Shown here piece by piece: positions 2,711 to 59,004 of a stretch of DNA of 64,000 bases. Under the pieces are notes generated by a model. The model saw only the letters and a list, made by a program, of their open reading frames with translations, was not told the origin of the DNA and did not search any database. The first letter of the stretch is position 1, and the number at the start of each line of letters is the position of its first letter. Source of the stretch: Ilex aquifolium (lineage: Eukaryota > Streptophyta > Magnoliopsida > Aquifoliales > Aquifoliaceae); NCBI GenBank assembly GCA_951799425.1, contig OX637393.1, positions 26,058,744-26,122,743 of the forward strand. The letters run 5' to 3'. A program made the position numbers and the translations under genes.

Positions 2711-3200
2711 TATAATAATGAGGCTATTGCTTATATATTATTAACTAAGGAGGACGAAACATTAGGATAGTGCCTATGGTAAAATTGTGTCAGAAAAACA
2801 TGTCAACCCATATGCTGAGGAATACGATATCGGTTTGGGGTTGTAAAGGTCTGAAAGTTACTCGCAATGATGAAGCTCACTATCTTGCAAAATATGTTGT
2901 GTCTTGTTTGGAGTCTTGTTTGTGGAAGGAGGAAGGTCCTATGTTCTTATTATATTCCCTCGAGCTTGATGTATCTAGTTTCGTCGTTTCACAGCAAAAC
3001 AAAAAGTTTTAATCATATATTTAAGTTTTATGTCTTTGTCATAGCACTTTTGCATTTTGCATATATACTAGGTTTGTTTGATTTCCATTTTAAAGAGTTG
3101 GGAATTGTTGCATATATTTTGAGTCCCATATTTTCACGTTGTAGGATCTTGCGATTCTCGATCAGTCGATCCCTATCCTTTAGCCACCACCATTGATGCA
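2711..3200 (+). mobile_element. Possible LINE RNase H remnant
   Basis: 2770-3012 encodes about 80 residues with NDEAHYLAKYVV and a following Trp-Lys-Glu-Glu-Gly-Pro stretch. This resembles the C-terminal RNase H tail of plant L1-type LINEs (N..AH.LAK, then W.EEGP). No poly-A tail or target duplication was found. Low confidence. Confidence 0.35.
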
Positions 3201-3446
3201 AGATAGGATACCTATTTTAAAAACCTTGCTCTAGTTCCTAATAATAATTGTTCAATGCTCAGACAAATGGAAAATGAAAAGAAAATGCTTATTGGAATCT
3301 CATTTTTACTAGCTAAAGCTTACCATCAAATCTTGTTCTTCATTTTACTACCTAAATAAACTAGGCATAAATGCATACATAGGATTAGACGCTCAAAGTC
3401 AAGCTCTTTAATTAAAAGTATAAGGCATTAAGGATCACAGAATTAC

Positions 3447-3530
3447 CTCCTGTGGGAAATCTCCATTTTCCATTTGAGAATTTATCAAAAATTTTGCTGC
3501 ACAGTGCAATGGTGTTGGGTCTCTTTCAGC
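3447..3530 (-). CDS. CAS1: CAS exon 17, residues 693-720 (last exon in window)
   Basis: 84 nt, phase 0. Acceptor TTGCAG, donor GTAATT. Begins [13 protein letters not shown] and ends ENGDFPQE. The terminal exon (family sequence EIMGVFNRNC... to the stop) was sought on the minus strand of 1-3446 and is not there. Confidence 0.95.
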
Positions 3531-6500
3531 CTGCAACACAAGTTTAAATGTAAGTTTTCACAACAATAAATATCCAAACCTTAGGCTATGTTAAATTAGA
3601 TGGAAAGTAGTCGAAAGGAAAAATATCTCGAATTTTTTGGAGTTCGGCTACCAAGAAAGAGAAAGTTTTGCAAAACATCAGTTGCTGTAATTGCCTAATT
3701 TTTCAGCAAGAATCCAATTTTGTATCTTGCCAAAAACACAAGAAAAATATGTTTTTCACAAGAATCTACTTCCTCAGATTTGGATTTCTTGCCTAATATT
3801 AGCTAAGTCTTCGCTTATCAAATTCACCACAAGTCTAATGAAATAAGACTAACCTTTGCCTTTTAGGCGCACTTACAACCAAGGATCAAAATTTCGTTTC
3901 GGTGCATTGTTTCGGTCACATAGGAAATGGAAACGTTTCGACGTGTTTCGGAAACGAGTCGAACCGTTTCGAAAACAGAATGAAAAAAAATAAAAAATTT
4001 AAGAATTATTTTTTCAAAACATTGGTCGAAATATAGCAATATCTTGAAATACCTTGAAACATTCCGAAATAATTGTGCAAATGCATTGAAATATAACAAA
4101 ACATTTCAAAACATTATGGAATATTTCGAAATATTAGAATTTCGATTCCATAACTGATTCGTTTCGGTGTCCTTGGAAACGGAAACGTTTCGGATGTTTC
4201 GACCGTTTCGAAACGATATTTTGATCCTTGCTTACAACATAAAATAGTACCTAGACTAAACCTTTGCAAGTAAATGGTCAATTTAGGTAAAATAAAATAT
4301 TGTCCCTTCTGCTTTCACCCTCTTCACCATCAAAATGTAGATTTATTCTCTCTTATGAAGTTTCCCCTCTAACCAAATAAGTTCAAAAATGTTAATTTAT
4401 TGTATTTTCACTTTCCATCATTGTTTCTCCCTAATCCCACAGAGCCTTAGAGAATTAAACTTTAAGATGTATTATCATAGAAACTTTTCAAAATATCCTA
4501 TTTTTCTAATCAAATAAAATAATTCTATGTATGATTTACATGCTTAATGTCCAAAACGAAAAACATGTAGAATCACAAAATTGTTGCTTCAAGAGTGTCA
4601 TTGTTTAAAAATATTAGCTAGACCATAGTGTTGAGATATATAGTACTTAATGTTACACCTTCTCTAACAATTAATCTTTCACATAAGATGGTAGTCTTAT
4701 ATGGTACCAGAGTTAGTCCATGGACCGCGTCTCCCACCAATTTGGATTTTGTTGTCTGGTGTTTATGTATTTTGTACGAACCCGAGCTGCACGTAAGGGA
4801 ACTGTGTGGATGAAGAATAGGGATATTAATCAAGATGAGGTTGAGTATGCTTAGATCCGACTCGATGGTGACTGCCGAGCTTAGACTCTTGGTCAACCTT
4901 AGCCCAATAGAGCTCACGAGCACAAGCCAAAGCCGAGCTCAAACTTTCAGCAAAAATTGTTCTTTTGGACATAAAGGTCAATCCCAAAATAATCAATTAC
5001 TCAACGAAAATCCCCCAAAATCTAAAATACAGTGTAGGACTATTTGAGGGTACCTAGGGTTATTCAGATACGAGTTGTTTGTTTATCAATTTTTTATTAT
5101 TTGTAGATGCAAACCTATTCGAATCGAGTCTACTCGAGCCAAGCTAAACGTTGTTTCTGTTAGAGTTCTTATTTTGTATATTAGACAAGTTAATTAGTGT
5201 AGGATAATATTGTAATTACTCTAATATTACACTATCATAAATAAGAGTGTACGACAACTTAAACCTACATAAAATAAATTATTCGCTTTCTCTTTTTCTC
5301 CATTCTTCTTTTCTCTTCTCTTCTCCTTTTCTTACTGTTAAAATATAAATACTTAAGTTACACCCTCTCCAACAGCTTAAACTTTTAGAGTAAATGGTTG
5401 TTTATTATACTATCAGAGCAGAAGATCCTATGTTTGAATCTCGCCGCCAACCTAATTATTAAAAAAAATTCATGTGCGAGGTTCCAAATCTAGCCTGCAC
5501 GTGAGGGGATGTTGAAGTATAAATACTTAAATTACACCGTCTCCAACAGCTTAAACTTTTAGAGTAGATGGTTGTTTAACACTTACAAACCTTGAAACCA
5601 TTACTACAATTTTAACTTGGTATCAAGACATTGATTCTAGACCAACGGGCCTTTAGTCTAATAGTACTTCTTGTCTTATGAATGTTTTGCCTTCTTGAGG
5701 TCAAGGGTTAAAGTCTCCCGTCCCCCCTCCCCAAAGAAAAGGGGAAAAAAAATTAAAAAAAAGAGCATTGATTCTAGTTTTTTTTCTTTCTGTTTTTTTT
5801 TCGATGAACAATGTCACGTGAATAGTAATATGTGAACAATAATCTATGCAAAGTGACGCATGAACAGTAATCAATGAACAGTGTCGTGTGAACAGTAACA
5901 CGTGTGATCTTGTTTGGTTGTGCGATTTGTTGTTGTAGATGGTGGATTCTGATTTAATTCTTCATCGGAATTGCAACTAGTAATCTCAGCCATTTATTGC
6001 TTGTTTTGGACGTGATTTTTGTGATTGTTTTTTGGTGTTGGATCCCTGTTCCACTGTGGGGAAGTTTCAATACAAACCAGATAGGTGCGATTAGATTCCA
6101 AGAAGTGAGATTTATAATGCCCATAGGTTTGTTGTTGGTGTCGACGTGATTCTTATGATTTTTTGGCGTTTGACTACTGTTTCGGCCTTAAACAGTGATT
6201 GGGGCTGCTCTAGGTTGCTCCAATGCAGCGTTGTTTTTGCCCAATGTTGGCTTCTAGATATTGGGTTCTTGGTTGTATTTGAGAATCTATGATGGGTTCA
6301 CTTCAACGCACTACTTTATTTAGTCTAGGCTTATTATTTGTTAATATTTGGTTATGGAATGAACTTCTAAAGATTCTGGTTCAAATTTGAATATTCTCCC
6401 TAGTACTTTCTATAGTAGTTTGTGTGGTTGCTGATACTTCGTGGATTAGTGGGTTTTTTGTGGTTTGATTTTTTTGGTTTGACACTGTATAATTACTTGT

Positions 6501-9500
6501 GGCTTTCTTGATGGCGACTTTGAATGGTAGTAATGGTGGTGTTCGTGGTGGCGGTTGTGATCCGCTCTATAATTCTAGATATGGTGGTCTATGCACTGTA
6601 CGTGGTGGAAGTGGTGGTGGTTCTGGTCGTGGTCATCGCTTTGAGTGGAAGTGTATTTATTGTGATGGCACGAGAAATACTGAAAATTGTTTTTGGGCTC
6701 AATATAGGAGACCAATATATGTTAATCAGGCTTCTAATGAAAGCTCAGGTTCTCTAGTACATCAAACTTCTACTAAAGGTCCAGATGCATCTACTAATTC
6801 TCGTGATAATCTTTCTTCTCAGCTTCATCAGTTGATCCAACAGTTATCTTCACTTTCTCCACATTTATCTATTCCTATTACCAATCTTGCTAATGAAGGT
6901 AACTTTGCATGTATGGTTGCTCAACCTTTTTCGTCATCTTGGATCATTTGATTCATGAGCTAGTTATTTGGTAATTTTTGCTTGTTGTCTAATTTTCATT
7001 CGTCTAACTCACGTATTGTATTAGTTGATGGCTCATTTCGACCGGTGCATGGGACTAGCGATCCCTGTCCTACACAATCTATGTCATTAACCTTTGGTCT
7101 ACTTGTTCCTAATTTTCCTTTTAACTTGTTATCTATAAGTCAGCTCACTAAGTTATTACAGTGTTTTGTAACCTTCTCTCCACCCTCTTGTGTTTTTTAC
7201 GACCTTAGGACAAAGAAGATGATTGATTTGGGGCATGAGAAAAATGGCCTTTACTACTTAGATCAGAATGGTTCTATTCCTACCTTGAGTACTACCATGT
7301 CTCCTCTTCAGTGTCACTTCCGACTGGGTCATCCTTCATTACAAAAGTTGTGGCATGTTATTCCTGGTTCGAGTTCTTGTGTGTTAAAATATGAGGCTTG
7401 TCAATTAGGCAAGCATCACTGTAATTCTTTTCCACCTAATTCTTCAAGTCGTCAGTCCAAGTCATTTCATGTTGTTTATACAGACATTTGGAGTCTTGAA
7501 AGAGTCAAAAGTATTTATGAGTTTCAATATTTTGTGATATTGGTTGAAAATTTCTCTCGTATAACTTGATTATTTCTTATGAGAGATCATTCTGAATTAT
7601 TTAAGGCCTTTACCACCTTTTTATAATAAATTCTTGACTCAGTTTGATGTTCGTATTAAAGTTCTTGGGTCTGATAATGCCACCAAGTATGCTTAATTAT
7701 TTATGAAAAGATTTTATGCTGACCATGACATTATCCATCAAAATACCTCCCAATAAAATGACATTGTCAAACGTAAACATCGCCATTTGTTGGATATTAC
7801 CCGCACCCTAATGTTTAACATTCATGTGCCAAAACTATATTGGGTTGATGTTGTTCTTACTTCAATGAATTTTATTAATCGCATGTCTTCCCCCATTTTG
7901 GACAATAAATCTCCTTTCTCATTGCTTGATCCTGATACACAGCTATTTGGTCTCTCCTCATGTCTTTGGTTGTATTGCATTTGTTCATTTTTTTTGGTTT
8001 GGATAGGGATAAACTTTCGCATCACTCATCTAAGTGTGTTTCTTTGGGATATTCTCGTACTCAGAAAGGTAATCGTTACTATGACCCTGTTTCTCGTCGA
8101 TACCTTGTCAGGGTTAATGTTACTTTTTTTGAGTCATCTTCCTTCTTTTTTGTGTCAGGCAATACATAGTATTCCCAGTCAAGGGGAACTCTTGTTGCCT
8201 ATTGGACCAGATTGTGTATCTTTTTTAACCCGAAGTCCTACTCCTCCCTTGCAAGTTTATCATCACTCTAAGGATAAACGGATTGTTCAATATGCTCCCA
8301 CTCCATAGTCATCACCTGATTTTACTGAGGTCATGTCCCCTGAGCTGTCAAGTAGTTCATCATCTTCTATTTTGCCTCTAATATTAAGGAAAGGTACCCG
8401 TAACTGTACAAAGTATCTCATTTCTAATTTTGTTTCTTTGTATCGGCTTTCACCATCTTTTTGTTGTTTTGCATCGACTTTTTCTTCGGTATTTGTTCCT
8501 AATACTTTGAAACAGGCATTGACATCTCCTAATTGGAAATTGGCTATGAATGAGGAAACGAAAGCCTTTCATGAGAATCAAACATGGGACCTTACTACTC
8601 TTTGTTTTGGTAAATAGTCTATTAGTTGTTGTTGGGTCTATACAATGAAGAATCATCTTGATAGTTTAGTTGAGCGTTTGAAGACCCATATGATTGCCAA
8701 AGGTTACACCCAGACATATGGTGGGAGTACTATGAGACTTTCTCTCATGTTGCCTGTCTTAACTCTGTTAGAATTTTTATTTCTATTGCAATAAATTGTG
8801 ATTGACCTTTGTATCAACTAGACATCAAGAATGCCTTTTTTAGATGGAGATCTAATGGAGGAGGTGTGGTACAACTTCCAAGTTATGTTGTATTTGGTAA
8901 GGAACAATTAGTGTCATATGAAGAAAGCATTATATGGCCTGAAACAATTACCAATTGCTTGGTTTGATAAGTTCACTACCGTAGTATTTCAGTTTGGTTT
9001 TCACCGCTCTACCTTAGATCATTTAGTTTGGTTTTCAGCGCTCTAGCTCAAATTATTCAGTTTTCACTCGTCGGTCTTCTGTAGGCATTATTATTATTAT
9101 TATTGTGTATGTCGATGACGAAATCGTCAGTGGGAATGACTCAGATGGTATTGCTTGCTCTAAGGCCAATTTGGAAAGCAGTTTCATACCAAAGATTTAG
9201 TTCTTTTTTCGGTATTTCCTAGGGATTGAGGTTTACCCGATTAAAGGAGGATATCAATTTGTGCCAACGAAAGTATATACTAGAATTATTATTTGAGACA
9301 GGTACTCTTGATGCACGTCCGATTTATACACCTATAGATCCTATAGTTAAGCTAGATTCTATGAGTGGTGAAGTCTTTGATGATATAGGACGATATCGGT
9401 GGTTGGTTGGTAAACTAACTTATCTTACAGTTACATGCCCTGATATTACATATGTCGTTGGTGTGGTTAGTCAGTATATACATGCCCCACGTAAGCCTCA

Positions 9501-12500
9501 TTATGAAGTTGTCTGTCGTATACTTCGATATCTAAAAAAAGTTGTGGGGAAGGGTTTATTATATCGTTAATCATCATCTATAACGGTTATTGGTTTTCTT
9601 GACGTTGATTGGACAGGTAATCATGGTGATAGACGATCTACGTTTAGGAATTGCACATTTGTTGGTGGTAATCTTGTAACATGGCGCAGGAAGAAGTAAA
9701 ATATGGTTGCACATTCTAGTGCAGAGGCCGAATATCGTGCTATAACATATATTGCTTATGAGATGTTATGGGTCCGTTCTTTACTCTGTCATATGAGACT
9801 TGACGTGTCTTCCCCTATGAAGATGCATTGTGACAATCAAGTAACTATTTTCATCGCAAGCACTCAGGTATTTCAAGGGTGTATCAAACACATTGAGGTA
9901 GATTGTCATTTCAGTCGAGATCTCTTGATGCGAAGGAGATCAGCACTCCATATATCAAGTCTGGTGATCAACCGAGTTATATTCTTACTAAGCCATTGGC
10001 TCGGTTTGTCTTTAGTAGTTTATAATCCAAGCTGGGCATTTTCGATTTATATGCTCCAACTTGAGGAGGAATATTAAAGTTCTTATTTTATATGTTAGAC
10101 ATAAGTTAATTAGTGTAGGATAATATTATAATTACTCTAATATTACACAGTTATAAATGAGTGCTGCGCAACCTAAACCTACACACAACAGATTATTCCC
10201 TTTCTCTTTTCTCCATCATTTTCTCTCTTCTTTCTCCTTTTCTCACAACCCCTAATACCGCTTGCACAATTTCAACTGCTTCGATTTCACTTGTTTGCAA
10301 AACGAGCTCATAAATTTGGTCGAATTCGATTCATTTTGCAATTTTACCAAATCTAAACAAGCAAGACTAAATAAGAGCCCAAACCGAGCTCAAATTGATC
10401 AGATCACTTAGCAGCCCATTCAAGAGAGAACTTGTATCCCCACATTGAATGATTAAGGCCACCCAAGCCTAAATATATGATTAAAGAGTTTCTTCACTCA
10501 TAAGCAATTGATTATGAGTTGGACGTCTTTAACACAATGTCAAAGGAAGTGGGAGGTACTACAAGCGAATCTCATTGTCACATTGGTAAAATTATTATAC
10601 TACCACATGCTTGGCCCAAAATATGTATTGCACGTGAGGGAATATGTCGAAAAGCATAAATACTTCCATTAATTACATCATCTCTAACAACTGAACCTTC
10701 AGATAGGTTCTGATCAAAAAAAAAAAAAAAACTTTAGATAGGTTGAGGGTTGGCAAATAGTCGAAAGATTTATATTCGATACAGTGCGAATTCCAACTGG
10801 CTACCAGGATTTAACATGTAGGACCAACAACTAATAAGAACACCAAAATGTAGGAGTTAGTCACTCACACCCACACCCCCTGAGAGTTGTCACAAAATCA
10901 CACGGACACGATCAGACATGGAAAACAGCATCACAGCCTTCTAAGATTTAGTTTGTTGTAATAGATAACCCCTAACATTTGAGTTGATTTCATGGGTAGT
11001 CCAATTTTGATGGCAGAAAAAAAAAATTCAGCACCCAATTCCCAAATTAAAAGCACGGCACCAACAATCACTATTTTGGATGACGAAAGTACCCATAGTT
11101 TTTCATATGGAAGGGTAATTTTATTGCAACAAAACACAATACTTAAAGAATGTTCGATGAAACCACACAAACCCACAATTTCTATTAAAAAGGCTCCCTC
11201 CCTCGTCTCTTTGCACACCCCACCACACGGAAACTTACTGCTCAACCCATCACCTCAAATCCCCAACATAACTACCACCCAGACCCTACTACAAATCTCC
11301 AGCACAACAACCACCCGAGCATCATTGTTTGCACACTGTCAATTTCCATAGCACTGGAACCACCTCTCTTTCTCTCTCGTTCCACATACACTGAAACATA
11401 CTATCAAGATCACAGCACCGATCGTCAGCCCTTACGAGGTAGTGATAAGTTTCACGCAATCTATTTAGTCGCTAGTTTTTGTCCCCTTTCTGACCAGGAA
11501 AGTGAACTTTGCATAAGGCTATCCCAGCTCGAAAGACATTTACATATAAAAATCTAGTTTTTTGTGGTTGAAAAATTAAGGTATTTCATCCTCGGACTAT
11601 TGACTTTATAATTGCACTTACTCACATGTGCACCCACCCACAAAAGTACGATACCACCCAAGGCCCAAACACCAACACCACCACTTGACTACCACTATCA
11701 AACCCAAATGCCACCTAAAGAACCCCAATCAACCAACTAGCAACACACAGAAGCCCCAAATACAAAGAAAAGCAGCTATATGTAGGATAATCTAACAACA
11801 AAGGATCAACGAACACAGTGGGGCTTACAATCATTGTTTGAGGCACAGAGAAGCCAAGATCCTATTCTATTGATAAAGTTTGATATTATATGTGGGCTTC
11901 AAATGAAGAAGAAACAGAGAATTTACACTCAATTCCAGTGGCCAGCCATCGGGATAGTATTGTTATTGAAGCTTAGCCCAATTAAGGGGTGTGAGAGAGA
12001 AAGGGCCTCAGAGCGAGTGTGTGGTGACAGTGCACTCGTGTGATGGTTTCAATGAGGAGAAGAAACAGATCTAGTTTGGGCTAAGGTTTTTGTTTGTTTA
12101 TAACAAATATGTACAGCAAGGGCAAATTGTTTTTCTTACCATTTCCATTAATTTTGCTTCCGCGTCGTTCCTAGCTAGGGATGGTAGCGTTATTTTCCAT
12201 ACCTAAGGGAGCTAGTGTGATTTGGGAGAAAAAAATCACTGTTTTAGGCATAATTAACTCAAAATATGAGGTGCAAACAAAGAGTTACTCTTGGCTGTAG
12301 GAAGAAAAATATTAGGATTTGCAAACAACCCACGTTACTCACCTCTAGAGATTACTAGATAAAACTCTTACCAGATATCATGGTCAATTTTACAACTTTT
12401 TCTAATTTATTTTGAATTAGAACTCTTCCTAGTTCTCACTTTATGACAAACATCGTGTTTACATTTATTCCTTTCATTCTTTAGGCTTCTCCTAGACATG

Positions 12501-15500: not shown

Positions 15501-16184
15501 AAACTAATTAATAGTAACATCTAGCAGAGAATAAAAGGATAAAGTCCTGTTTTCAAGCAATGACCCGATGACCGATGTAATCAGTTAAAATTTGCAGGAC
15601 AAAAATCAACGGCACCTTCAACCAAATTAATATGAGATGATGACAATTTATGAATTGCAATTACTTCATTTGGGAGTAAAAATAGCTCTGAATAATTAAC
15701 AAGAATTTAATAAGAATAAAGGAAGCAACTCCTAAATTGAGGAATCTACTTATTCACAAATTTAACCAACAATCAAGGAATGTGTGAATCTAGAGAATTT
15801 ATGATGAAGTAGATCTCATGAGAGTAGAAAACCATGCAAGTAGAACTAGAACAAAGGGCACTTTAATTACTGAAAGCTAATTCCCAGCAGCCCTAGCAGT
15901 CACTGAAAATAAATGCAATTGTTCCTTACTTTCTAGCTGGGAAGCACGGATACTCCTTAGGGGGTCGACGTGGCAGTGTCGGACACGTGTTCGACACGGA
16001 TACGCGTGGGACACAGCCGGATACAGGGTGATACGGAGGGATACAGTCACAACCATGAATTTGAAACCAAAAAAAAAAGGGGGGGGGGGGGGGGGGGGGA
16101 AAGAAGACGATGTACCTGATCAGACACAGCCACAACCACAGCCACAGATCTCCTTCTCTTCGAGTAAGTATGTCGTCTTCATCT

Positions 16185-16218
<34 letters not shown>

Positions 16219-24525: not shown

Positions 24526-24563
<38 letters not shown>

Positions 24564-51500: not shown

Positions 51501-54500
51501 CTGTCTACTCCAATGGTTTTCCTCGGGTATAGGTAATCCCCTGTCAAATATTCTTGATTCTTTTAGTAGCATCAGTCAATACCACCAGATCGAGAAGAAT
51601 TTCTCATTCGCAGCCACAGTCCCAACTGGTTGGTGGACTCTGGCAAAAGTGTTCGAGCTTGCACTCAACATCCCACGTTGTATCTTTGCATCACCCCTCA
51701 ATGTCTTATCGGGATTTTTCAGGCCAGTTGTCTTCTTTGCTTGTTCCTAATAATTTACAGGATGATGGACTAATGATCCCAAATGGAAGGAAACGACGTT
51801 TGTTTGTTTGTTCCTAATAACTTACAGGACGGGCTTCTGATCCGAAATGGAAGAAAACGATGTTTGAAGAGATTAATGCACTTCAAAAGAATAATACTTG
51901 GGAATTCTTTGAGCTGCCTTGGGAAAAAAATGAGGTGGACGTAAATTCATGTTTTACTTTACATAGACTTGAGAGATTGACCAACATGAAACATTTGAAC
52001 TAGTGGTAAAGATGATTTCTATTCGTGTCTTACTTTACTCGGCTACAAATAAGGCTGGCCTCTTCAACAATTTGATGTGAACAATGCATTTTTATGTGGA
52101 CACCTAAAGGAGGAAGTATACATGGGTGTAGCACCCGATTTTGAACTTACCTTTGATAATAGCAAGATATATAGACTGACATTGAAGCAGTATCCAAAAC
52201 CATGGTTTGAGAGACTCATCCAAATCCATATTGATGTATTGTTATCATCAGAGTCATGTTGATCATAATTTATTTGTCAAGCATCCTCCTTGCAGAAATA
52301 TGACTACACTAATTGTGATTGGTCATTATTTTGAACTCACTGGTGATGAGGAAGAGATGATAAAATTAAAGACATATTTGGCCTAAGAATTTGACATAAA
52401 GGATTTGGAAAGTTTTAAGTATTTCTTGGCCATTGAGGTTGTGAGATCTAGATGGGGCATCTTTATTTCACAACAGATGTATTTGCTTGATCTACTTAAG
52501 CAGACAGACATGTTAGAATGTAAATCTGCTTTACACACCAATTAGAGCAAAAGTACATGTTAGGAGAAAATGTTGATGATCTTCCTATTCCATAAACTAG
52601 TTCCCGTCCAGATATAACTATGTAGTCAGTATGGTTAGTCAGTTTATACAGCCAGCTCGTGAGCCTCATATGAAAGCGCTTTATAGAACCCTGAAGTATT
52701 TAAAGTAGCTCCTAGTAAAGGGTTCTTTTTTCTCTAGATATGATAATCTTCAAGTGAAACTTATTCAGATGTAGACTGGGCTGGATTAGAACCAAACAGA
52801 AAATTGATTTTTGGGTATTGTCCCTTTGTAAGAGGAAATTTGGCAGCATGGCACCACATGAAATGCCATTTGTGGCCAGATGTAGTCAGAGGCAGAACTT
52901 AAAGCTATGAGTGATGGTATTTGTGAATTGTGATTGGAATCGACATTGAAGGCGCTTGGTTTTAGTTCGGAGGAGCCTACAAAGTTGTACTGTGATAGAA
53001 TTTAGAGCTGACTCATGGTATCTGTAAATTATGACTGGAATTCATATTGTAGGATGGATTTCAAGAGCTTGGTTTTAGTTCGAGGAGTCTATGAATTTGT
53101 ACTGTGATAATAAGACAGCAATTAAAATTGCTCACAACACGGTTCAGCATGACAAAACCAAGTATGTTGAGGTTAACATGCACTTGATCAAGGAAAAATT
53201 AAATACTCGTTTGATTTGCACTCCATTTGTAAAGAGGGAGGGGAGGATCAACTTGCAGGTATCTTGACAAAAGGAGTATGTAGTATAGTGTTTCATTCAA
53301 TTATCTAGGGGTTTGTTAGAAGTGTACTAGTCTTTTATCTCTATTACAGTTACGAGCTTTAGCTGTTACGTATAACATTTTACCTATAAATACAAGCTAC
53401 AGATACAGAGAACCCTAAGTTTCTCTTCTTTCTTTCAGAAACCTCACTTTTTTTTTCTCTCTCTCTTTCTCTTTGCAATAGGAAACACTAATTCAACTGG
53501 TTCAATATCACCAATCATAATGGAGTGAGATGATGTGTAATTACCTCCAAGTACAAGGGCATCTTGTGTAATTGCCTCAAATATTTAACTTGCCCAACCC
53601 AATACGAAGGACTATCAACAACTATGAAGCACGAGCACTGTCAAGAAGGTGACGGATCTGTGTCGGACACTGACACTCCTTTGACACTCTCGGACACTTA
53701 TCCTATGCTCTTTTATCCATGTCCATAATTAAATGATAAAATCCTAATTTCGGACCACGTCCAACACTTCTTTTGTGACGTGTCTAACATTTCTTTAGGT
53801 CATGTCTACTATTAAATAATAAACATGTGTTGACATGTGACTAATAAAACTTAAATAAGTATTTTATACTATGAGAGAATATATAATTAGCAAGACTAGA
53901 AATATTAAAGTTGTCCTCAAAATATAATAAATAAAAATAAAAGATGCATAAAATTTTTAAACAAGAGGAATTGAGAAAATGAGAACAATCATTTAACCTA
54001 TATATGTTAGGTACACGTTGTCTACAAAAACATTTATGACTATTTGACTATTATGATGTTTTATTCTAGAAATTCACACTAGATAACTAGACATAACATT
54101 TAGTTATCATAAAGTACAAATTTTTTTTATAAATAGTATATAATTAGCCCTATAACACATCTATCTTTAGCATGTCCCCACCTTGTATGTGTCCTACATT
54201 TTTTAAACATGTCGTGTCTGCGTATCTGTGTCATGTCATGTCCGTCTCTGTCTCTGTGTCCGTGTCCGTGTCCGTGTCCGTGTCCGTGTCCGTGTCCGTG
54301 TCCGTGCTTCTTAGTCGACCAATAAGCAAGAATCTCCAATGCAGATAAGGGCAAAAGGTGAAAGCAGTGCCACTAACTAAATTTAATAAGTAGACTACTA
54401 TTCAGAATTTTTAGAACTTTGAATAGTCCCCTTACGAAAAACAACTGAATCAGAAGTTGCATTAATTTTTCCAAAATTTAGGTGTTCCTCAAAAGTATCA

Positions 54501-57500
54501 GTAAAAGTGTGGTCACTCATGCCCACAAATCATATCTGATCAAGTTTTCTTTAGATCAACTTTCCATAAACAAGTAATGAGAACGAAAATAGCTGTCACA
54601 AACCATTGCATTCCTAAAACCTACATACAAAATTGTCAAGGATGTAGAGAGCTGGTAATAAAATCTCAGCTTTTTAGGATGACTGTACTACAATTACTTA
54701 CCTTTGCGCACTCGCTGCGCGCTTTATTCCAATCTATTTCATGATAAGGGGCAGTATACAGTTCCTTTCTCAAAGACAGAACTGTTGGTGTGATTGGACC
54801 TACAAACCTCTTCCCATATAAGTATGACATTGGAAGATAAACCATCCGACAGTGACACCACATCCTTCCTGCAATATAGGGAATAAGAGGTAACTTATCT
54901 TAGAAGAGTCAAAAAAAAATTTGAAACACAGAAAAATGTTGTGTACAAATCAACATCAACCAAGAATTTTGCATCAACCAAATCATCAAAGCACAATAAA
55001 AATATGTACCGCCATAACATCTGTTGAGGAAATGGAATTAAAATGATCTATTAAAGATAACTTGTGCCTCCTTTTCAACAAAATGGTAACAAGGGCAGCT
55101 AACTGAGCACATCATTGCCAGAAAAAACTCTGCCTTGTAAAATAATGATGATAAAAGAACAAGGGACAGAGGACCCAGACTTATTAACAACAGAACAAGA
55201 TTTTCACACGAACTGACGTATGCCACCCTTATCAGCCCACTCATCAATTCTGTTGTTCTATCAGAAAACAAGTACAAGTTCTCCATGCAACACCGATGGG
55301 GATAACTCTAATGGCAAAACACTTTGTAATCAATTTGACCTTTTTCATATTATGAAACATTACTGCATCCAACCTCATGAACTTTATTTCTGAACCTCAA
55401 TCTATCTAATGCTATAGCATTCAACCCAAAACCAATGAGTAGAGACTCCTCAATCGATAAACCAATCTTGGTGACTGAAATCTTTGATGTGGAATTTAAA
55501 CTCTCTTTGCGCTCTCCCTCACATGGGACCTGGAAGGCAGGCTGGACTCGCATGTTAGCTAATAAACAGACAAACAAATATGCATAACGAAAAACTTTTT
55601 AACAACCATTCAACGCGACCCAGCTCTAAAATCAATTTTTCTTTTTTTTAAATTCATTCACCACCAATTGGAAATAAATGCAGAGATCTCTCAACCATAA
55701 AAATCAACCTTGGTTGGACCAAATCTTTCGATGTAGGATAGAAGCTCTCTTCACACTCTCATTCACACGGGATCCGTACTTGCACGTGGCGTAACAAACA
55801 AAAAACATGTATAATAGAAAAGTCAAGCGGATGAGAGACTTGGTGCACATACCATCCAAGGACCAGCTGGATACCCAGTTAAACACATCCATCTCAAAAC
55901 TAATTGGAAATAGGTAAAGAGGCCCCTCAAACATATGAAGCAATCTTAGATGACCATATTTTTCAATAAGGGATACAAGCTACCTTCCCATAGGATGACA
56001 AATTAGCGTGATTGGCAAACTTAACATCACCATTAAGATCATTAAATTGTCAAGAATGTAGCTTTGTTCAATTGGAAGCATTAGATTTCAGAAGTGTCAG
56101 AGGACCCAATCATTCTTTTCGATCGTACAGAAAATGACCTCCTTTAATCACACAAGGAAAAGAAAAAACATACACCAAGAAGCATGAGTGGGAAGTTACC
56201 TGGATGGACTGGAAGCATATAAGGACAAAGCCATATCTCAGGAGGCAGGGGATTATTTCCACACCATTCAAATGCTCCAAGCACCTGATAACATCAAGAA
56301 TGCAACAAGAATCAACAAATGCCAGTATATACAACCAACAGTTGAAGTAACAAGTAAAATCAACAAAATAAAAGGTGAAGACTGAACTGAAAGCCACATT
56401 TTTCCCCATGACGTGATTGCTGTGGCACTACCATGGTCCAGAATCCATTTACGCCCTTTCTCCATTGCCCCTTGTCCATCATTAGCTCCCTCGCCAAGCA
56501 ACCTCAATGTAACATAGCTCAGAACAGTACCAAACATGGTGCTTGGGCCCTCAATGTGCAAACCCCACCCACCATCTCTGTTCTGCAATTACAGGGTGTT
56601 CTATGTAAAAATTTCACTCATCAAAGGTGTATGTATATACATTAAAAAAGAGGAATAACAGGTATGTTTACTAAAGTTGAAATTAGAAGTATCCTTGCCT
56701 GATGATTGTAAAGATAACGGCAGATCTCACGCTTATGTTCTTTCGACAATATTGCATTCAGTGCTCCGGTAATGGAGAGAGTAATGACCTGATAAATTAA
56801 ATGAAGAATAAAAATCAAAACTCATATGATTATGTCTTTCCTTAGAAAAATCAGATACAATTATCTGAAGCTCCTTGCTTCCAAGGTGACAATCACCGCA
56901 TAATTCAAAAAGAAAATTGCAACAAAACTTCTGCAAACTCCACTTCCTGTACATTGCAAGAATGGGAACATCCTTTTTTTTTTTTTACCTTAGGATGCAC
57001 CACTAGCAACATCAGCACTTACCAAGCCAGGCATTAGAAACATAGGACCTCCGTAATCTCCTGGCCAGTGTCCATCATGCGCCTGGAGAGTTGAATGAAA
57101 ACCAATTGCCCTTCTTAGCGTGTTTGTCACTTTATCCTCTGTGATATCATCTATATCTTTTACTTTGACTTGGGGCAAGACTATACTGACAGGATTCTCT
57201 TTTGCAAACTACAGTTGGAAACAGAATGACGGTCTAAGTCAAAGAATAGGATTCAGCTGACACTAATTAAAAAATATCATTTTTATTGGATTACATAATA
57301 TATTCTCAATCACCATTCTTAGCTCCCAGCAAAAAAAAAAATCACCATTCTTAGCTGAGTGAAGATGTTGCAAAACCGTATCTCACTACCTTAATACAAG
57401 CAAAAATTCTATTAAAGATGCCTCATATAAAAATTGTTTGACAATGTCCATATGCAACGAAGACAACACTAATCTACTAAAATCCACATGTCGATTGCAC

Positions 57501-58676
57501 ATATTCCTCAACCTCAATTTGTCAGTTTTTTTTAAAAAAGAACAAAGATAAATCATGACCAATTGTTTTCTGTTAAGGAATAAATTAGCTTTGATTGCAA
57601 AAAGATCATGTTTTGAATTCCAACTCTCTTATGACAGGAAGAAAAGCTTGCAAACAAGTGACATTTTTCGAAATAATCCTGAACAAAGGATCTTCAGCCA
57701 TGCGTCGTCCCACCCAGCCATGGTAAGAATCTGTTCAAAAAAGGTCCCTGCAGAGTCCCGTCCTATCACCCCGTCAAATTACTCCACAACTTAGTATGGC
57801 GGTGAGATAGATGTCTCACCGCCATACTAAGAACTGCTTTCTAACAATTGAAAACATGCCTTGAATCTACGAGTTTTTGTGAACTGCTGAAAAAGTCCCT
57901 ATTACAGGTGCTGTATCAATCTGATGTTGTTTTTCCTCATTGTTGACATATCCACCTAAATTAGTGAAGCCAATGTTCACAACACTAAGAACTAATGACT
58001 CGCCAAATTTCAAGTATCAAAATTTCTTATCACATCTGTTTAGCATAAGAAAACAATTGACTGCCCCAGAAATCACAAGCTTGAGAGCTCAATAGATCGC
58101 CAGAAGCTCTTTCTATACAAGTAAAATGTCCACTACTTACCAGAAAAAGTACTAAAAATAACATCAGTATACAATATACATAAAGCTACGCAAATTTTCT
58201 ATTCCCATTTCCCCAAACCACCAAATTTTGCAATCTTAAAACCCCACAAATTGCAAACAATTCACCAAAATAGCATCAATGTACAGTCCAATAGACATAC
58301 ATAGAGCAGCATACAAGATTGCAGAGATCTGTAATTTAAAACTTAAAGAAGATACCGTATAATATTATCATTTTGCCAATCGAAAAACTGATTTAATCAA
58401 TTAATTAGACTTCAGAGCTCATATAACACACATATATGTATATATGTGGAAAACTGTATTTGTATGTGTTTTGGGTACCTGAATACGCATGGGAAGATCT
58501 GAGCTGTGCTTTTTCTCGAACCGATGAATGCGAAAGTTTTCACGCGATTTCTCGATCTCGGCTAGCTCTTCGGGGGATCCGAGTCCCTGGTCAAACTCCC
58601 AGAACTGCCTGCCGATGTGGCTATTGGTAGTTCGTAGCCAAGGACTCCCTCCCTCTGCGATCTTCAGCTTCCACAT
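3447..58676 (-). CDS. CAS1: Cycloartenol synthase gene (17 of about 18 coding exons; 3' end outside window)
   Basis: Encodes an oxidosqualene cyclase that folds 2,3-oxidosqualene into cycloartenol, the first cyclic precursor of plant sterols; the family is monotopic in the ER membrane. Seventeen exons join in frame to 720 codons with no stop (family about 757-759). Visible: N-terminus [16 protein letters not shown] (254-258 region, His257); Tyr410; DCTAE at 483-487 with catalytic Asp483; His477 and Ile481, the pair that marks cycloartenol rather than lanosterol synthase; repeated QW motifs at 108-114, 158-164, 523-529, 600-606 and 649-655. Beta-amyrin-type cyclases usually have MWCYCR, so they fit less well. 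Start chosen at [10 protein letters not shown]; an in-frame ATG lies nine codons upstream but probably within a 5' UTR intron. Introns 5, 6, 11, 12, 16 and 17 carry mobile elements. The span is over 55 kb, of which 2,160 nt is coding. Identity certain; exclusive product is inferred from residues. Confidence 0.97.
3880..4230 (+). mobile_element. hAT MITE family A, copy 1 (351 bp)
   Basis: Ends are inverted repeats CAAGGATCAAAAT and ATTTTGATCCTTG. An exact 8-bp target duplication CTTACAAC lies at 3872-3879 and 4231-4238. The body is dense in GAAACATT and TTTCGAAAC motifs and has no coding capacity. Eight-base duplication and CAAGG ends point to hAT. Confidence 0.88.
4629..4803 (+). mobile_element. 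TRIM family 1, partial copy
   Basis: LTR-like stretch TGTTGAGATATATAGTACTT at 4629-4701, primer-binding-like TGGTACCAGAG at 4701-4711, a short non-coding middle, and a polypurine-like GCACGTAAGGGA near 4790. Matches the fuller copy at 5336-5581. No second LTR recognised. Confidence 0.55.
5336..5581 (+). mobile_element. TRIM family 1, whole-looking copy inside a Copia LTR
   Basis: A 246-bp element with two 72-bp LTRs (5336-5407, 5510-5581), a primer site like TATCAGAGCAGAAG right after the first and a purine tract GTGAGGGGA before the second. It is flanked by a 5-bp duplication CTTAC (5331-5335, 5582-5586). No coding capacity, as TRIMs are. Confidence 0.82.
5641..5765 (+). mobile_element. SINE (tRNA-like) inserted beside a Copia primer site
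   Basis: A 125-bp insert with box A-like TTTAGTCTAATAGTACTT and box B-like GGTTAAAGTCTCCC, an A-rich tail, and a perfect 12-bp duplication CATTGATTCTAG at 5629-5640 and 5766-5777. Confidence 0.72.
10560..10715 (+). mobile_element. TRIM family 1, 3' end copy
   Basis: Purine tract GCACGTGAGGGAA (10630-10642) is followed by an LTR-like stretch from 10645 (TGTCGAAAAGCATAAATAC) that matches the LTR at 5510-5581, then an A-rich run at 10718. The left part is too diverged to bound. Confidence 0.5.
10720..12975. other. Intron 16 stretch, no supported feature
   Basis: AT-rich, with short A runs and C/A-rich pieces near 10860 and 11640. ORFs here are short and without family signatures. No host exon was found. 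Confidence 0.6.
12990..13300 (+). repeat. Possible solo LTR remnant
   Basis: TGTTGGAATTGTTAGATTTCC is followed by a TATA-like TATATAAATAGGGGG and a CT-rich leader, a layout like a short plant LTR promoter. No coding part or partner LTR seen. Confidence 0.3.
13301..13875. other. Intron 16 stretch, no supported feature
   Basis: AT-rich sequence without recognised coding or terminal-repeat structure. Confidence 0.55.
13880..14125 (-). mobile_element. TRIM family 2, partial copy (minus)
   Basis: Read on the minus strand: LTR-like TGTGAAGAGAGCTTGCATCC ending GTTCTAACA (about 14030-14100), then primer-like TGGTATTAAAGC (about 14015-14026), then a non-coding middle ending GCAAGTTTGGATCACG. The same order occurs at 55648-56000. 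Confidence 0.5.
14130..15008. other. Intron 16 stretch, simple repeat only
   Basis: No gene or bounded element. A short (GA)n run lies at about 14773-14789 and a T run at 14160-14172. Confidence 0.55.
15017..15343 (+). mobile_element. hAT MITE family A, copy 2 (327 bp)
   Basis: CAAGGATCAAAATTTCG at the left and ATTTTGATCCTTG at the right, with the family's GAAACATT-rich body. Flanking octamers (CTCCAAAC, TTACATGC) do not match, so an old or rearranged copy. Confidence 0.78.
15344..15928. other. Intron 16 stretch, no supported feature
   Basis: No ORF, terminal repeat or exon recognised. Confidence 0.55.
15937..16702 (+). mobile_element. hAT-type non-autonomous element family B, copy 1 (766 bp)
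   Basis: Ends CTGGGAAGCACGGATAC and GTATCCGTGCTTCCTAG are inverted repeats; an exact 8-bp duplication CTTTCTAG lies at 15929-15936 and 16703-16710. Inside are a run of about 20 G (16080-16099) and a (CT)n run (16189-16214). No transposase frame. A second copy is at 33737-34510. Confidence 0.85.
16859..16939 (-). CDS. CAS1: CAS exon 16, residues 666-692
   Basis: 81 nt, phase 0. Acceptor TATATAG, donor GTACAC. Begins [13 protein letters not shown] and ends ALIDAGQ. Followed by the 13.3-kb intron 16 (3531-16858). Confidence 0.95.
17557..17734 (-). CDS. CAS1: CAS exon 15, residues 606-665
   Basis: 178 nt. Acceptor TTCTAG, donor GTTTAG (weak). Completes Trp606, then [28 protein letters not shown] and the QW motif QLPSGGWG (649-656); ends YLSCQNK. 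Confidence 0.95.
17956..18099 (-). CDS. CAS1: CAS exon 14, residues 558-606 (part)
   Basis: 144 nt, phase 2 at both ends. Acceptor CTATAG, donor GTTAGT. Begins [12 protein letters not shown], contains [11 protein letters not shown] and ends QAADGS plus two bases of Trp606. Confidence 0.95.
18188..18234 (-). CDS. CAS1: CAS exon 13, residues 543-558 (part)
   Basis: 47 nt, phase 0 in and phase 2 out; the smallest exon. Acceptor TTTCAG, donor GTAAGA. Encodes [15 protein letters not shown] plus two bases of Pro558. Confidence 0.95.
18426..19872 (+). mobile_element. hAT-like element family D holding a family A MITE
   Basis: Left end CAAGGTTTTTAAAATCGGGA and right end (inverted) CTAAGGTTATTAAAATCGTG match, followed by shared GGATCCTAC-like subterminal motifs. 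Flanking octamers GGTCCGAT and GTTCCAAC agree at 5 of 8. It encloses the family A copy at 18520-18910. The middle (18919-19700) is unrecognised and may be another insert. Confidence 0.5.
18520..18910 (+). mobile_element. hAT MITE family A, copy 3 (391 bp)
   Basis: CAAGGATCAAAAT to ATTTTGATCCTTG with an exact 8-bp duplication ATCCTACT at 18512-18519 and 18911-18918. Contains a local tandem repeat of AAGCACCTCGAAACATTATG (about 18743-18800). Sits inside element D. Confidence 0.88.
20438..21995 (-). mobile_element. Young short Copia element nested in Copia fossil 3
   Basis: Two 185-bp LTRs (20438-20622, 21811-21995) differ at one base by my reading, and a perfect 5-bp duplication CCGGC (20433-20437, 21996-22000) flanks them. 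Parts: LTR, Met-tRNA primer site TGGTATCAGAGC, one long reverse transcriptase/RNase H frame with [14 protein letters not shown] and FCDNQAA signatures, purine tract, LTR. Gag, protease and integrase were not seen, so it is not whole. With usual plant substitution rates an age of a few hundred thousand years is a rough inference. Confidence 0.92.
23986..25406 (+). mobile_element. hAT family A, long copy (1.42 kb)
   Basis: Ends CAAGGATTTAAATCTCG and CGAAATTTCGATCCTTG; flanking octamers CGTATTAC and TGTATTAC match at 7 of 8. Inside are a (CT)n run (24529-24561) and a tandem array of about 22-bp units at about 24660-25100. Closely matches 49162-50467 in the opposite orientation. ORFs are low-complexity; no transposase. 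Confidence 0.85.
24660..25100 (+). repeat. Tandem array of ATTACATTTAATACCCACTGTA-like units
   Basis: About 22-bp units alternate TTTAATACC/TTTAATACTCC with TGTAATTA or TATAATTA, broken by two T runs. Units abut without spacers. The same array occurs inverted at 49470-49805. Confidence 0.75.
29387..30685. other. Intron 12 stretch, no supported feature
   Basis: Intron sequence between Copia fossil 3 and exon 12. No ORF with a known family, no bounded repeat. Confidence 0.55.
30686..30742 (-). CDS. CAS1: CAS exon 12, isolated 57-nt exon, residues 524-542
   Basis: 57 nt, phase 0 on both sides. Acceptor CTTCAG, donor GTACTT. Encodes [19 protein letters not shown], most of a QW motif. It stands alone between introns of 7.9 and 12.5 kb. 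Skipping it would keep the frame and drop 19 residues. Confidence 0.95.
31362..31660 (+). mobile_element. hAT-like family C fragment
   Basis: Starts CATGGTTCAAAGAATCGG, like the element at 35881. The right end was not found. Confidence 0.3.
31725..32032 (+). mobile_element. hAT MITE family A, copy 4 (308 bp)
   Basis: TAAGGATTAAAATTTTG to AAAATTTTAATCCTTG with an exact 8-bp duplication TTTTGAAT at 31717-31724 and 32033-32040. Many C-to-T type changes against the other copies suggest an older copy. Confidence 0.82.
32520..33023 (-). mobile_element. Copia fossil, 3' end only (minus)
   Basis: 32820-33020 encodes on the minus strand an RNase H tail (HNPVQ, GKLSKGL, HFVKS) leading to a purine tract and an LTR that starts at about 32817 (TGTTATGTTATG) and runs to about 32520. 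Broken; only the end is recognised. The Copia at 33024 appears to have inserted here. Confidence 0.6.
33081..33137. mobile_element. Short SINE-like insert in a Copia LTR
   Basis: A 57-bp insert containing ATTTGGGGTCGGCTATATGA, a motif I recall from Au-type plant SINEs, flanked by TAATAATATATTAGTCATA (33062-33080) and a near-identical copy at 33138-33157. The long duplication indicates retroposition; family is tentative. Confidence 0.5.
33737..34510 (+). mobile_element. hAT-type family B, copy 2 (774 bp)
   Basis: CTAGGAAGCACGGATACG to CGTATCCGTGCTTCCTAG, a perfect 18-bp inverted pair. Flanks ACCGTGAC and GCTGTGAC match at 6 of 8. Inverted relative to copy 1 (long T/poly-A and GA/CT tracts in reversed order). 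No transposase. Confidence 0.85.
35400..36984 (+). repeat. Second copy of a Copia leader/gag segment
   Basis: 35620-36980 repeats the order of 33400-35290: the ATCATTTTCTGGCGAC area, TCCGACTAGG, TGGTGGATCTA, CACACCTCT, then the gag start near 36755 and the opposite-strand piece near 36850-36960. Each copy holds a different hAT insert. A Copia-derived, broken, old tandem duplication. Confidence 0.6.
35881..36153 (+). mobile_element. hAT-like MITE family C (273 bp)
   Basis: Starts CATGGTTCAAAG and ends TTGAACCTTGGTG. Comparison with the uninterrupted copy near 33690 shows the insertion point; flanks GCTCAATA and CCTCAGTA match at 6 of 8. Confidence 0.5.
36985..38149 (+). mobile_element. PIF/Harbinger DNA transposon, 5'-truncated, with transposase C-terminal half
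   Basis: Encodes part of a HARBI1-like DDE nuclease. Exon a (36987-37173) has [16 protein letters not shown] and [12 protein letters not shown] with the second Asp; an 82-bp intron (37174-37255, GT-AG) joins in frame to exon b (37256-37728) with [25 protein letters not shown] and ACCAVHNF. The right end AAACCAAACACGCCC, then TAA, fits a PIF terminal repeat and 3-bp target. The N-terminal half and left end are missing; 36985 abuts Copia-derived sequence. Both retained exons lack internal stops, so the copy is not very old. Confidence 0.82.
37256..37728 (+). pseudogene. PIF/Harbinger transposase, 3' exon
   Basis: Last part of the DDE_4 (HARBI1-like) domain: [33 protein letters not shown], then a family-typical tail. 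Open to a TGA at 37726-37728. Part of a truncated gene, so not expected to make active transposase. Confidence 0.82.
38150..38643. other. Intron 11 stretch, no supported feature
   Basis: AT-rich intron between the Harbinger end and exon 11. Confidence 0.55.
38644..38742 (-). CDS. CAS1: CAS exon 11, residues 491-523
   Basis: 99 nt, phase 0. Acceptor CAACAG, donor GTAAGC. Begins [14 protein letters not shown] and ends VNVILSLQ. Followed by the 7.9-kb intron 11 (30743-38643). Confidence 0.95.
38822..38944 (-). CDS. CAS1: CAS exon 10 with the catalytic DCTAE motif, residues 450-490
   Basis: 123 nt, phase 0. Acceptor TTAAAG, donor GTAATA. Holds [15 protein letters not shown]: His477, Ile481 and Asp483 fall at the Arabidopsis CAS1 numbers. 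Asp483 protonates the epoxide in this family; His477 with Ile481 are the residues linked to cycloartenol outcome. Confidence 0.97.
39047..39169 (-). CDS. CAS1: CAS exon 9, residues 409-449
   Basis: 123 nt, phase 0. Acceptor TCACAG, donor GTAAAA. Begins [12 protein letters not shown], so the Tyr is residue 410, the active-site position named in Arabidopsis CAS1. Ends YIKSSQ. Confidence 0.96.
39312..39425 (-). CDS. CAS1: CAS exon 8, residues 371-408
   Basis: 114 nt, phase 0. Acceptor ATTCAG, donor GTCTAG, an unusual +3 C that still leaves CAG|GT. Begins [12 protein letters not shown] and ends AEDGMKMQ. Confidence 0.95.
39802..39990 (-). CDS. CAS1: CAS exon 7, residues 308-370
   Basis: 189 nt, phase 0. 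Acceptor TTGCAG, donor GTAAGC. Begins [11 protein letters not shown], contains [12 protein letters not shown] and [14 protein letters not shown], ends VNK. First exon of a compact five-exon block. Confidence 0.96.
39991..41204. other. Intron 6 stretch, unresolved repeat only
   Basis: No host exon. From about 40836 a segment opening GTAGGGGGTAATTACACATG looks like a dispersed plant repeat, but its ends are not defined. Confidence 0.45.
41205..41850 (-). mobile_element. L1-type LINE 3' end (zf-RVT domain)
   Basis: On the minus strand, 41570-41845 encodes [20 protein letters not shown], an [20 protein letters not shown] stretch (degraded zinc-binding reverse transcriptase tail), then about 41355-41530 encodes [15 protein letters not shown] and a stop near 41354. 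An A-rich tail follows near 41205-41215. Only the last part of ORF2 is present, with in-frame damage near 41570-41600. Confidence 0.72.
45670..46080. repeat. Insert interrupting SIRE gag, possibly Tourist-like
   Basis: TTAGGTTGCGTTTGGTAACC at 45674 has the look of a TTA target and PIF/Tourist end; gag-like reading resumes near 46100. Right end not resolved. Has long T and G runs at 46040-46070. Confidence 0.35.
46608..47673 (-). repeat. Gypsy-like LTR piece with primer site (minus)
   Basis: The minus strand reads GGGGTGTGATA, then TTTAATATCAGAGCT, which looks like an LTR end plus primer site. The extent to 47673 is inferred from where the SIRE LTR resumes. No coding part. Confidence 0.35.
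49162..50467 (-). mobile_element. hAT family A, second long copy (1.31 kb)
   Basis: Inverted match of 23986-25406. Ends CAAGGATCGAAATTTTG and CGAGATTTAAATCCTTG, with an exact 8-bp duplication GCTAGCAT at 49154-49161 and 50468-50475. Carries the inverted 22-bp array (49470-49805) and GA/CT tracts. The longest frame (49861-50475, minus) reads through low-complexity sequence and lacks hAT signatures. Confidence 0.88.
49470..49805 (-). repeat. Tandem array of about 22-bp TTTAATACC/TGTAATTA units
   Basis: Same unit as in the copy at 24660-25100, in opposite orientation and with fewer units. Abutting units, no spacers. Confidence 0.72.
53314..53487 (+). repeat. 3' LTR of Copia fossil 4
   Basis: TGTTAGAAGTGTACTAG start, TATAAATACAAG promoter-like motif, CT-rich tail, end near GGAAACA. 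No partner LTR to confirm. Confidence 0.45.
53622..54314 (+). mobile_element. hAT-like family B, diverged copy with hexamer array
   Basis: Ends CTATGAAGCACGAGC and GTGTCCGTGCTTCTTAG resemble family B. No convincing target duplication. Near the right end, 54256-54303 holds about eight GTGTCC units in a row. Confidence 0.5.
54256..54304 (+). repeat. (GTGTCC)n hexamer array
   Basis: About eight perfect hexamers. They grow out of the element's own terminal GTATCC/GTGTCC motif. Confidence 0.85.
54702..54868 (-). CDS. CAS1: CAS exon 6, residues 252-307
   Basis: 167 nt, entering at the second base of Gly252. Acceptor TTGCAG, donor GTAAGT. Contains [18 protein letters not shown] with His257, then [15 protein letters not shown] and ends ARSECAK. 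The next intron (39991-54701) is the largest in the gene at 14.7 kb. Confidence 0.96.
55648..56000 (-). mobile_element. TRIM family 2 copy in CAS intron 5 (minus)
   Basis: Minus strand: LTR-like TGTCATCCTATGGGAAGGTA to GATGGATGTGTTTAAC (about 55880-56000), primer-like TGGGTATCCAGC, a middle of about 100 bp ending GCAAGTACGGATCCCG, then a second LTR-like stretch TGTGAATGAGAGTG to about 55648. The LTRs share AGCTT.TATCC and TTTCCAATT. No coding capacity. Confidence 0.55.
56200..56284 (-). CDS. CAS1: CAS exon 5, residues 224-252 (first base)
   Basis: 85 nt, ending in phase 1 (first G of Gly252). Acceptor ATCAG, donor GTAACT. Encodes [14 protein letters not shown] and ends LPVHP. Two Cys (in EWC and LCP) stand where relatives I recall have Ser and Leu. 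Confidence 0.94.
56388..56582 (-). CDS. CAS1: CAS exon 4, residues 159-223
   Basis: 195 nt, phase 0. Acceptor TTGCAG, donor GTTCAG (weak but in frame). Begins [12 protein letters not shown] and ends KMWLS; completes the QW motif at 158-164. The next intron is only 103 bp. Confidence 0.95.
56699..56788 (-). CDS. CAS1: CAS exon 3, residues 129-158, followed by a GC donor
   Basis: 90 nt, phase 0. Begins [10 protein letters not shown] and ends YLYNHQ. The exon ends CAG and the intron opens GCAAGG, not GT. No GT in the right frame fits, and the next exon resumes exactly at NRDGGWG, so this is a GC-AG intron of 116 bp (56583-56698). Confidence 0.94.
57023..57208 (-). CDS. CAS1: CAS exon 2, residues 67-128
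   Basis: 186 nt, phase 0 at both ends. Acceptor CTGTAG, donor GTAAGT. Begins FAKENP and ends MFLMPGL; includes the first QW motif QAHDGHWPG (108-116). Confidence 0.95.
57209..58478 (-). other. CAS intron 1 (1,270 bp)
   Basis: No insertion recognised. A short near-palindrome GGCGGTGAGATAGATG / CATCTATCTCACCGCC occurs at about 57797-57826 (TATGGCGGTGAGATAG with its inverse). Otherwise ordinary AT-rich intron. Confidence 0.6.
57794..57832. repeat. Perfect hairpin in CAS intron 1
   Basis: AGTATGGCGGTGAGATAG, then ATGT, then CTCACCGCCATACTAAG form an inverted repeat with arms of about 16-17 bp and a loop of a few bases. Could be a MITE relic or a cruciform; no function shown. Confidence 0.7.
58479..58676 (-). 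CDS. CAS1: CAS exon 1 (first coding exon), residues 1-66
   Basis: 198 nt, 66 codons, from [10 protein letters not shown] to LPMRIQ, ending CAG with donor GTACCC. The upstream sequence TTTCTGTGAAATGCAG just before GGTGAAATG looks like an acceptor, so the transcribed exon probably starts at 58682 and a 5' UTR intron precedes it. Contains the GRQFWEFD and EELAEIEK family signatures. Confidence 0.95.
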
Positions 58677-59004
58677 TTCACCCTGCATTTCACAGAAATC
58701 CAATCAACACTCAAATGTCATTATATTGCACAATACGTAAGTGTCTGTAGACAGCCATTCCTATCTTCACATATATAAACCCACAAAGAAACACATGCAT
58801 GTGTACAATTGAGCCAAATCGCCAAGAAAAAGTGAAAAATTGGAACAAAAAGAGAAAATCACGCATGAAGTAATCATTCAAATGATAAATACTCTCAATG
58901 CATCCATTTACATATCACAAATGATACAATTTAGGCTACAAATCGAGAAAACTAGGAAATAAATCGAACATTCTACGATCAAATGAGTTGAGGTAGAATG
59001 ATAC

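Follow-up and report, generated by a model that had tools for sequence, protein, structure and literature searches.

A plant CAS gene very probably stretched past 55 kb by repeated insertions into its introns

Structure of the gene

We analysed a stretch of 64,000 nucleotides from Ilex aquifolium (the window) and found in it what is very probably a plant cycloartenol synthase (CAS) gene that has kept the usual exon plan while repeated and independent transposon insertions into its introns stretched it past 55 kb. The original prediction of a sterol gene stretched by transposons was right: the insertions lie in four giant introns and the reading frame is intact.

The gene was located by tblastn with Arabidopsis CAS1 and the exon boundaries were then read from the junctions. 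The reference sequence used had 759 residues. The search returned collinear minus-strand matches running from 58676 to about 3440, and besides this series there were a few weak chance matches in the window. The gene has 17 exons on the minus strand (58676..3447) with 2,160 coding bases. After splicing they give 720 codons without a stop and the frame is preserved at all 16 junctions, which agrees with the predicted 17 exons and 720 open codons. The coding share had been put at about 4 percent and we measured a fraction of 0.0391 (3.9% of 55,230 bases).

All exons are given here in the order of transcription. Exon 1 (58479..58676, 198 nt) carries the ATG start (MWKLK) and is followed by exon 2 (57023..57208, 186 nt), exon 3 (56699..56788, 90 nt, with a GC donor after it), exon 4 (56388..56582, 195 nt) and exon 5 (56200..56284, 85 nt). 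The MWCHCR motif lies in exon 6 (54702..54868, 167 nt). Beyond the first giant intron we find exon 7 (39802..39990, 189 nt), exon 8 (39312..39425, 114 nt), exon 9 with Tyr410 (39047..39169, 123 nt), exon 10 with His477, Ile481 and DCTAE (38822..38944, 123 nt) and exon 11 (38644..38742, 99 nt). Exon 12 (30686..30742, 57 nt) stands between two further giant introns. The remaining exons are exon 13 (18188..18234, 47 nt), exon 14 (17956..18099, 144 nt), exon 15 (17557..17734, 178 nt), exon 16 (16859..16939, 81 nt) and exon 17 (3447..3530, 84 nt), the final exon detected in the window. An acceptor-like CAG stands directly before the ATG (58677-58690) and suggests that the 5' leader of the gene holds an intron.

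The 16 complete introns measure, in order, 1270, 234, 116, 103, 1331, 14711, 376, 142, 102, 79, 7901, 12451, 88, 221, 617 and 13328 bases, a total of 53,070 bases. Four of them (introns 6, 11, 12 and 16; 7,901 to 14,711 bases) account for 48,391 of the 55,230 bases of the locus (87.6%). The predicted introns of 7.9-14.7 kb thus describe these four only, whereas the other 12 range from 79 to 1,331 bases. Phase 0 was found for 13 of the 16 introns, with all four giants among them. The splice sites had been called sound throughout. This holds for the GT-AG signals of 15 introns, but intron 3 (56698-56583) is GC-AG, which had been missed. Judged by eye, the donors of introns 4, 8 and 15 are weak in appearance, and together with the GC-AG intron they leave room for altered splicing.

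Identity of the encoded enzyme

The spliced protein is identical to the Arabidopsis CAS1 reference sequence at 571 of 720 residues (79%) without a gap, and a gap-free match of this length and identity is no chance event. The catalytic residues had been predicted to be sound and we found Y118, H257, Y410, H477, I481, D483 and Y532 all at their Arabidopsis positions. The residues that mark membership in CAS (Tyr410, His477, Ile481 and DCTAE, Arabidopsis numbering) are all present, and both CAS signature motifs, KMQGYNGSQ (406-414) and the motif at 474-484, are exact. According to an excerpt of PMC7060231 the activity of CAS1 strictly depends on KMQGYNGSQ (406-414) and the 474-484 domain, with Tyr410, His477 and Ile481 as key residues within these domains.

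Profile and structure databases point to the same family. For the TIGR01787 profile, which has a cut-off of 322.7 bits, the score was 728 bits. A sequence search of the PDB returned eight distinct sequences with oxidosqualene cyclases as the best matches. The top match was the terpene cyclase/mutase chain 8j5z with 959 bits, followed at some distance by the lanosterol synthase sequences 1w6j and 1w6k with about 608 bits each, and the weaker matches were mostly squalene-hopene cyclases. The comparison with full-length plant cyclases covered CAS1 and the PDB chain 8j5z.

As the signature residues and both CAS1 motifs are present, CAS is the best name for the gene and the protein is predicted to produce cycloartenol. 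The gene might instead encode a different oxidosqualene cyclase, a lanosterol or a pentacyclic triterpene synthase, and plants do carry several genes of the family, ten on average as stated in an excerpt of PMC6017009. However, the excerpted text of PMC4208727 reports that His477 and I481 are strictly needed by all CAS1 enzymes, whereas lanosterol synthases (LAS1) need V481, and the protein described here has H477 and I481. With both CAS motifs exact and 79% identity to CAS1, we consider a different cyclase very improbable.

The likeness to Arabidopsis CAS1 thus lies in the gap-free alignment over 720 residues and in the two motifs; what sets the locus apart from it and from other plant cyclase genes is the presence of four giant introns and the absence of the final exon from the window. 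PMC6017009 reports a structure of 18 exons both in an oat beta-amyrin synthase and in 10 full-length genes for rice cyclases. Our 17 exons and the expected last one fit this number. It is not universal: in the same paper the lupeol synthases of Arabidopsis have 17 exons, friedelin synthase has 15 and one rice gene has 10.

The 3' end of the gene

The last base of exon 17 is 3447; a donor site is found there, at residue 720, and about 39 residues of CAS1 remain beyond this point. The 720 residues matched positions 1-590 of the 622 positions of TIGR01787, and the C-terminal exon lies outside them. We searched 1..3446 on both strands for exon 18 with a 33-residue C-terminal peptide and did not find it. 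The best score was 4 compared to a self-score of 183, and the background reached a higher best score, 19, at other minus-strand positions in the window. The search was an ungapped scan with no positive control, in which the whole-window scan served as background only. Exon 18 must therefore lie beyond the window or have been lost. Any intron 17 would have to be longer than 3,446 bases. We infer that exon 18 is present beyond the window. The stretch 1..3446 would then be the start of intron 17 (minus strand), open at the window edge. It contains Copia RT pieces on the plus strand, one at 1347-1640 (Copia-type RVT_2) above the Pfam cut-off and one at 744-1250 below it.

The absence of exon 18 from the window would also be compatible with a recent pseudogene or a silenced duplicate, whose exons are still intact although productive transcription has ceased and a different CAS copy has taken over its role. 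We consider this unlikely. None of the 17 exons contains a stop or a frameshift, all 16 introns have GT-AG or GC-AG signals, and the frame is intact although the old LTR-like ends in the introns differ by about 15%. Furthermore, a missing exon 18 is what we would expect if intron 17 is also long. The bearing of published expression data on this alternative is discussed below.

Transposon content of the introns

Transposon-derived protein pieces were identified as follows: from 248 stop-to-stop ORFs of at least 60 aa we picked 30 pieces by eye and scanned them against Pfam at E 0.01 (two sets) and E 0.1 (one set), applying the curated cut-offs. Nine pieces were above the cut-off, four gave matches below it only and 17 gave none, and as a count over eye-picked pieces this is not a figure for intron coverage. 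Seven of the nine lie in the giant introns and one in the presumed intron 17. The last, an RNase H-like RVT_3 piece just above the cut-off (61335-61622), is situated upstream of the gene. A tRNA scan and an Rfam scan (gathering threshold) of the window gave no match in either case.

Identified transposons are present in all four giant introns. The original prediction had named Copia, hAT, TRIM, LINE and Harbinger sequence. Copia, Harbinger and LINE were recovered in the Pfam scans and hAT by its terminal repeats and 8-base duplications, whereas no TRIM was confirmed and the LINE part comes down to a single intronic piece.

Intron 6 (39991..54701, minus strand, 14,711 nt) contains a Copia gag piece (44816-45082) above the cut-off, a Copia RT piece just below it and the LINE piece, zf-RVT (41608-41853, minus strand), which is above the cut-off and which we take to be of the LINE type. 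It also holds a hAT-like element (49162..50467). Two further repeats of this stretch are 72% alike (43565-44393 and 47770-48551), and the hexanucleotide TGTCCG is repeated 11.3 times at 54239-54306, likewise in intron 6. For intron 11 (30743..38643, minus strand, 7,901 nt) we detected transposase pieces on the plus strand (DDE_Tnp_4 and Plant_tran, 36942..37725), with DDE_Tnp_4 above the cut-off at 36942-37187 and 37237-37725. We assume that DDE_Tnp_4 stands for the Harbinger type. A hAT-like element is found here as well, and direct repeats that are 82% alike were seen at 34513-35300 and 36209-36982.

In intron 12 (18235..30685, minus strand, 12,451 nt) the insertions are nested. An old Copia on the minus strand spans 20050..29381 with LTR-like ends (20050-20232 and 29204-29381) that are about 89% alike. 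It is interrupted by two later insertions, a hAT-like copy (23986-25406) and a second LTR element (20438..21995, minus strand), and one more hAT-like element lies in the same intron. A Copia-type RVT_2 piece at 22469-22810 is above the cut-off. The second LTR element is 1,558 nt long, its 185-nt LTRs are identical at 184 of 185 positions and it is flanked by a CCGGC duplication. Between the LTRs there is an open Copia RT frame of 393 aa, in which RVT_2 was found above the cut-off (20633-21826), and the start of this frame overlaps what we presume to be a methionine-tRNA-like primer site. The Copia parts that precede the RT are seemingly missing. We considered this element as a TRIM. A TRIM is a short LTR element with no coding capacity, and the assignment was rejected on the 393-aa ORF with RVT_2. 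The element looks like a young deletion derivative and not like a classical TRIM.

Intron 16 (3531..16858, minus strand, 13,328 nt) contains a degenerate Copia with LTR-like ends about 85% alike, a GAG-pre-integrase piece (6964-7566) above the cut-off and a hAT-like element. The homology between this Copia and the one in intron 12 breaks at 20424/21999, which is consistent with the nested insertion. For the end pairs of the two old Copia elements in introns 12 and 16 no target duplications were evident.

The hAT-like elements were recognised by their ends. The end motif CAAGGAT was selected after a first hAT-like pair had been seen. The window contains 25 terminal-repeat pairs with this motif; the 8-base flanks match in five of them (four perfect, one with a mismatch) and matching flanks are absent from the other 20. 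As a control we displaced the flanks, and 28 of 19,600 comparisons matched with at most one mismatch. Target duplications of 8 bases are typical of hAT elements. Five elements thus have the terminal inverted repeats and 8-base duplications of non-autonomous hAT elements, and no hAT transposase was found among the 30 ORF pieces in the Pfam scans. The element in intron 6 (49162..50467) is 1,306 nt long, has CAAGGAT ends and carries the target duplication GCTAGCAT on both sides. The copy within the old Copia of intron 12 (23986..25406) is 1,421 nt long and has 8-base flanks with one mismatch. The three others are short: 3880..4230 in intron 16 (target duplication CTTACAAC), 18520..18910 in intron 12 (ATCCTACT) and 31725..32032 in intron 11 (TTTTGAAT). 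From these five positions it follows that every giant intron has at least one. A further family member at 15017-15343 shows hAT-like ends, and its 8-base flanks do not match.

The likeness between repeat pairs ranges from about 85% and 89% for the LTR-like ends to 1,270 of 1,300 columns for a pair of hAT-like copies and 184 of 185 for the nested LTR element. This range, together with the nesting, indicates insertions of different ages within the introns of a gene with an intact frame. Assemblies presumably tend to fail in large repeat-rich stretches, and one could suspect that transposon-rich contigs were misjoined between the exons of a shorter gene. However, exon order, orientation and frame are all consistent, the target duplications match, the nesting is coherent and the window contains no N, so that an artefact of this kind appears very improbable.

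For the stretched CAS gene we propose the following course. The insertions would have fallen in a few introns, namely 6, 11, 12 and 16 and probably 17. They would be tolerated there because splicing removes them, which would leave the enzyme sequence unaffected.

Transcription through the long introns

Plant genes lengthened by transposons and one factor involved in their transcription are already in print, and the CAS locus adds one example. An excerpt of PMC8626473 counts 876 of 2,184 selected orthologues above 20 kb in Chloranthus spicatus, compared to two in rice and none in Arabidopsis, and names LTR elements as the apparent major contributor to the long Chloranthus introns. For grape, the excerpted part of PMC3058033 gives 2,697 introns in the range 3-100 kb, distributed over 2,563 genes, with about 80% of the expanded intron space made up of transposons. 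As far as these excerpts go, Chloranthus and the magnoliids (PMC8626473) and grapevine (PMC3058033) resemble our case in having introns lengthened by LTR elements at similar coding lengths, whereas hAT-like and Harbinger-type pieces contribute too at the CAS locus.

It had been asked how such a gene keeps up steady transcription and silences its introns without silencing itself. The question is real, as the mechanism underlying transcription through heterochromatic introns is still unclear (PMC7145194), but it was not first raised by this locus. A published rice factor for such transcription is OsIBM2 (PMC7145194). The rice genes with heterochromatic introns, some of them regulated by OsIBM2, share with our gene the intronic transposons and an apparently intact gene (PMC7145194). 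According to PMC10241880, both polymerase elongation and poly(A) signal usage in Arabidopsis are influenced by the epigenetic state of transposons within genes. Expression and chromatin state of the CAS locus are what we infer from such published cases: should the insertions be heterochromatic, transcription over the full length would most likely use the general plant machinery for such introns, of the IBM2 kind.

The same literature bears on the alternative of a silenced copy. Expression in Chloranthus falls once the intron length exceeds 40 kb (PMC8626473), and in grape EST singletons make up 46.0% of the large-intron genes compared to 32.8% of all genes (PMC3058033). With 53,070 intron bases, strong expression of the CAS gene is therefore less assured. 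Below 40 kb, on the other hand, the long-intron genes of Chloranthus are expressed more, again according to the excerpt of PMC8626473. Essential genes that absorb many kb of transposons and keep their frame serve as natural tests of how repetitive introns are transcribed and spliced, and the stretched CAS gene is one clear example with layered insertions.

Inverted repeats across introns

The two long hAT-like copies (23986-25406 and 49162-50467) lie in opposite orientation and are near-identical, with 1,270 of 1,300 ungapped columns in agreement. Both carry internal minisatellite repeats of 22-23 bases that differ in copy number. Between them, in introns 6 and 12, the pair encloses exons 7-12 (705 bases, 235 codons). 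It is conceivable, though improbable, that the two copies pair in the precursor RNA and tune the output of an essential enzyme; we gave this a low probability because chance alone puts one in two such pairs in opposite orientation. Such pairing would form a stem of about 1.3 kb with arms about 24 kb apart and would bring the ends of exons 7-12 together. These exons could then come out as a 705-nt circular RNA, or they could be skipped in a transcript that stays in frame and lacks 235 codons, those for Tyr410, His477 and DCTAE among them. A third possible outcome is double-stranded RNA that feeds the silencing of the hAT-like family. The pair thus provides one specific prediction that is open to ordinary RNA data. 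Intron pairing has been described as one way in which exons become circular, and in maize LINE1-like pairs are associated with circular RNAs (17.3%). In the excerpt of PMC11276256 from which these statements are taken, maize is the exception and complementary flanking introns are few among the circular RNAs of the other plants listed.

A second and weaker inverted pair (84% alike) is formed by 16030-16702 in intron 16 and 33737-34406 in intron 11, and it encloses exons 12-16.
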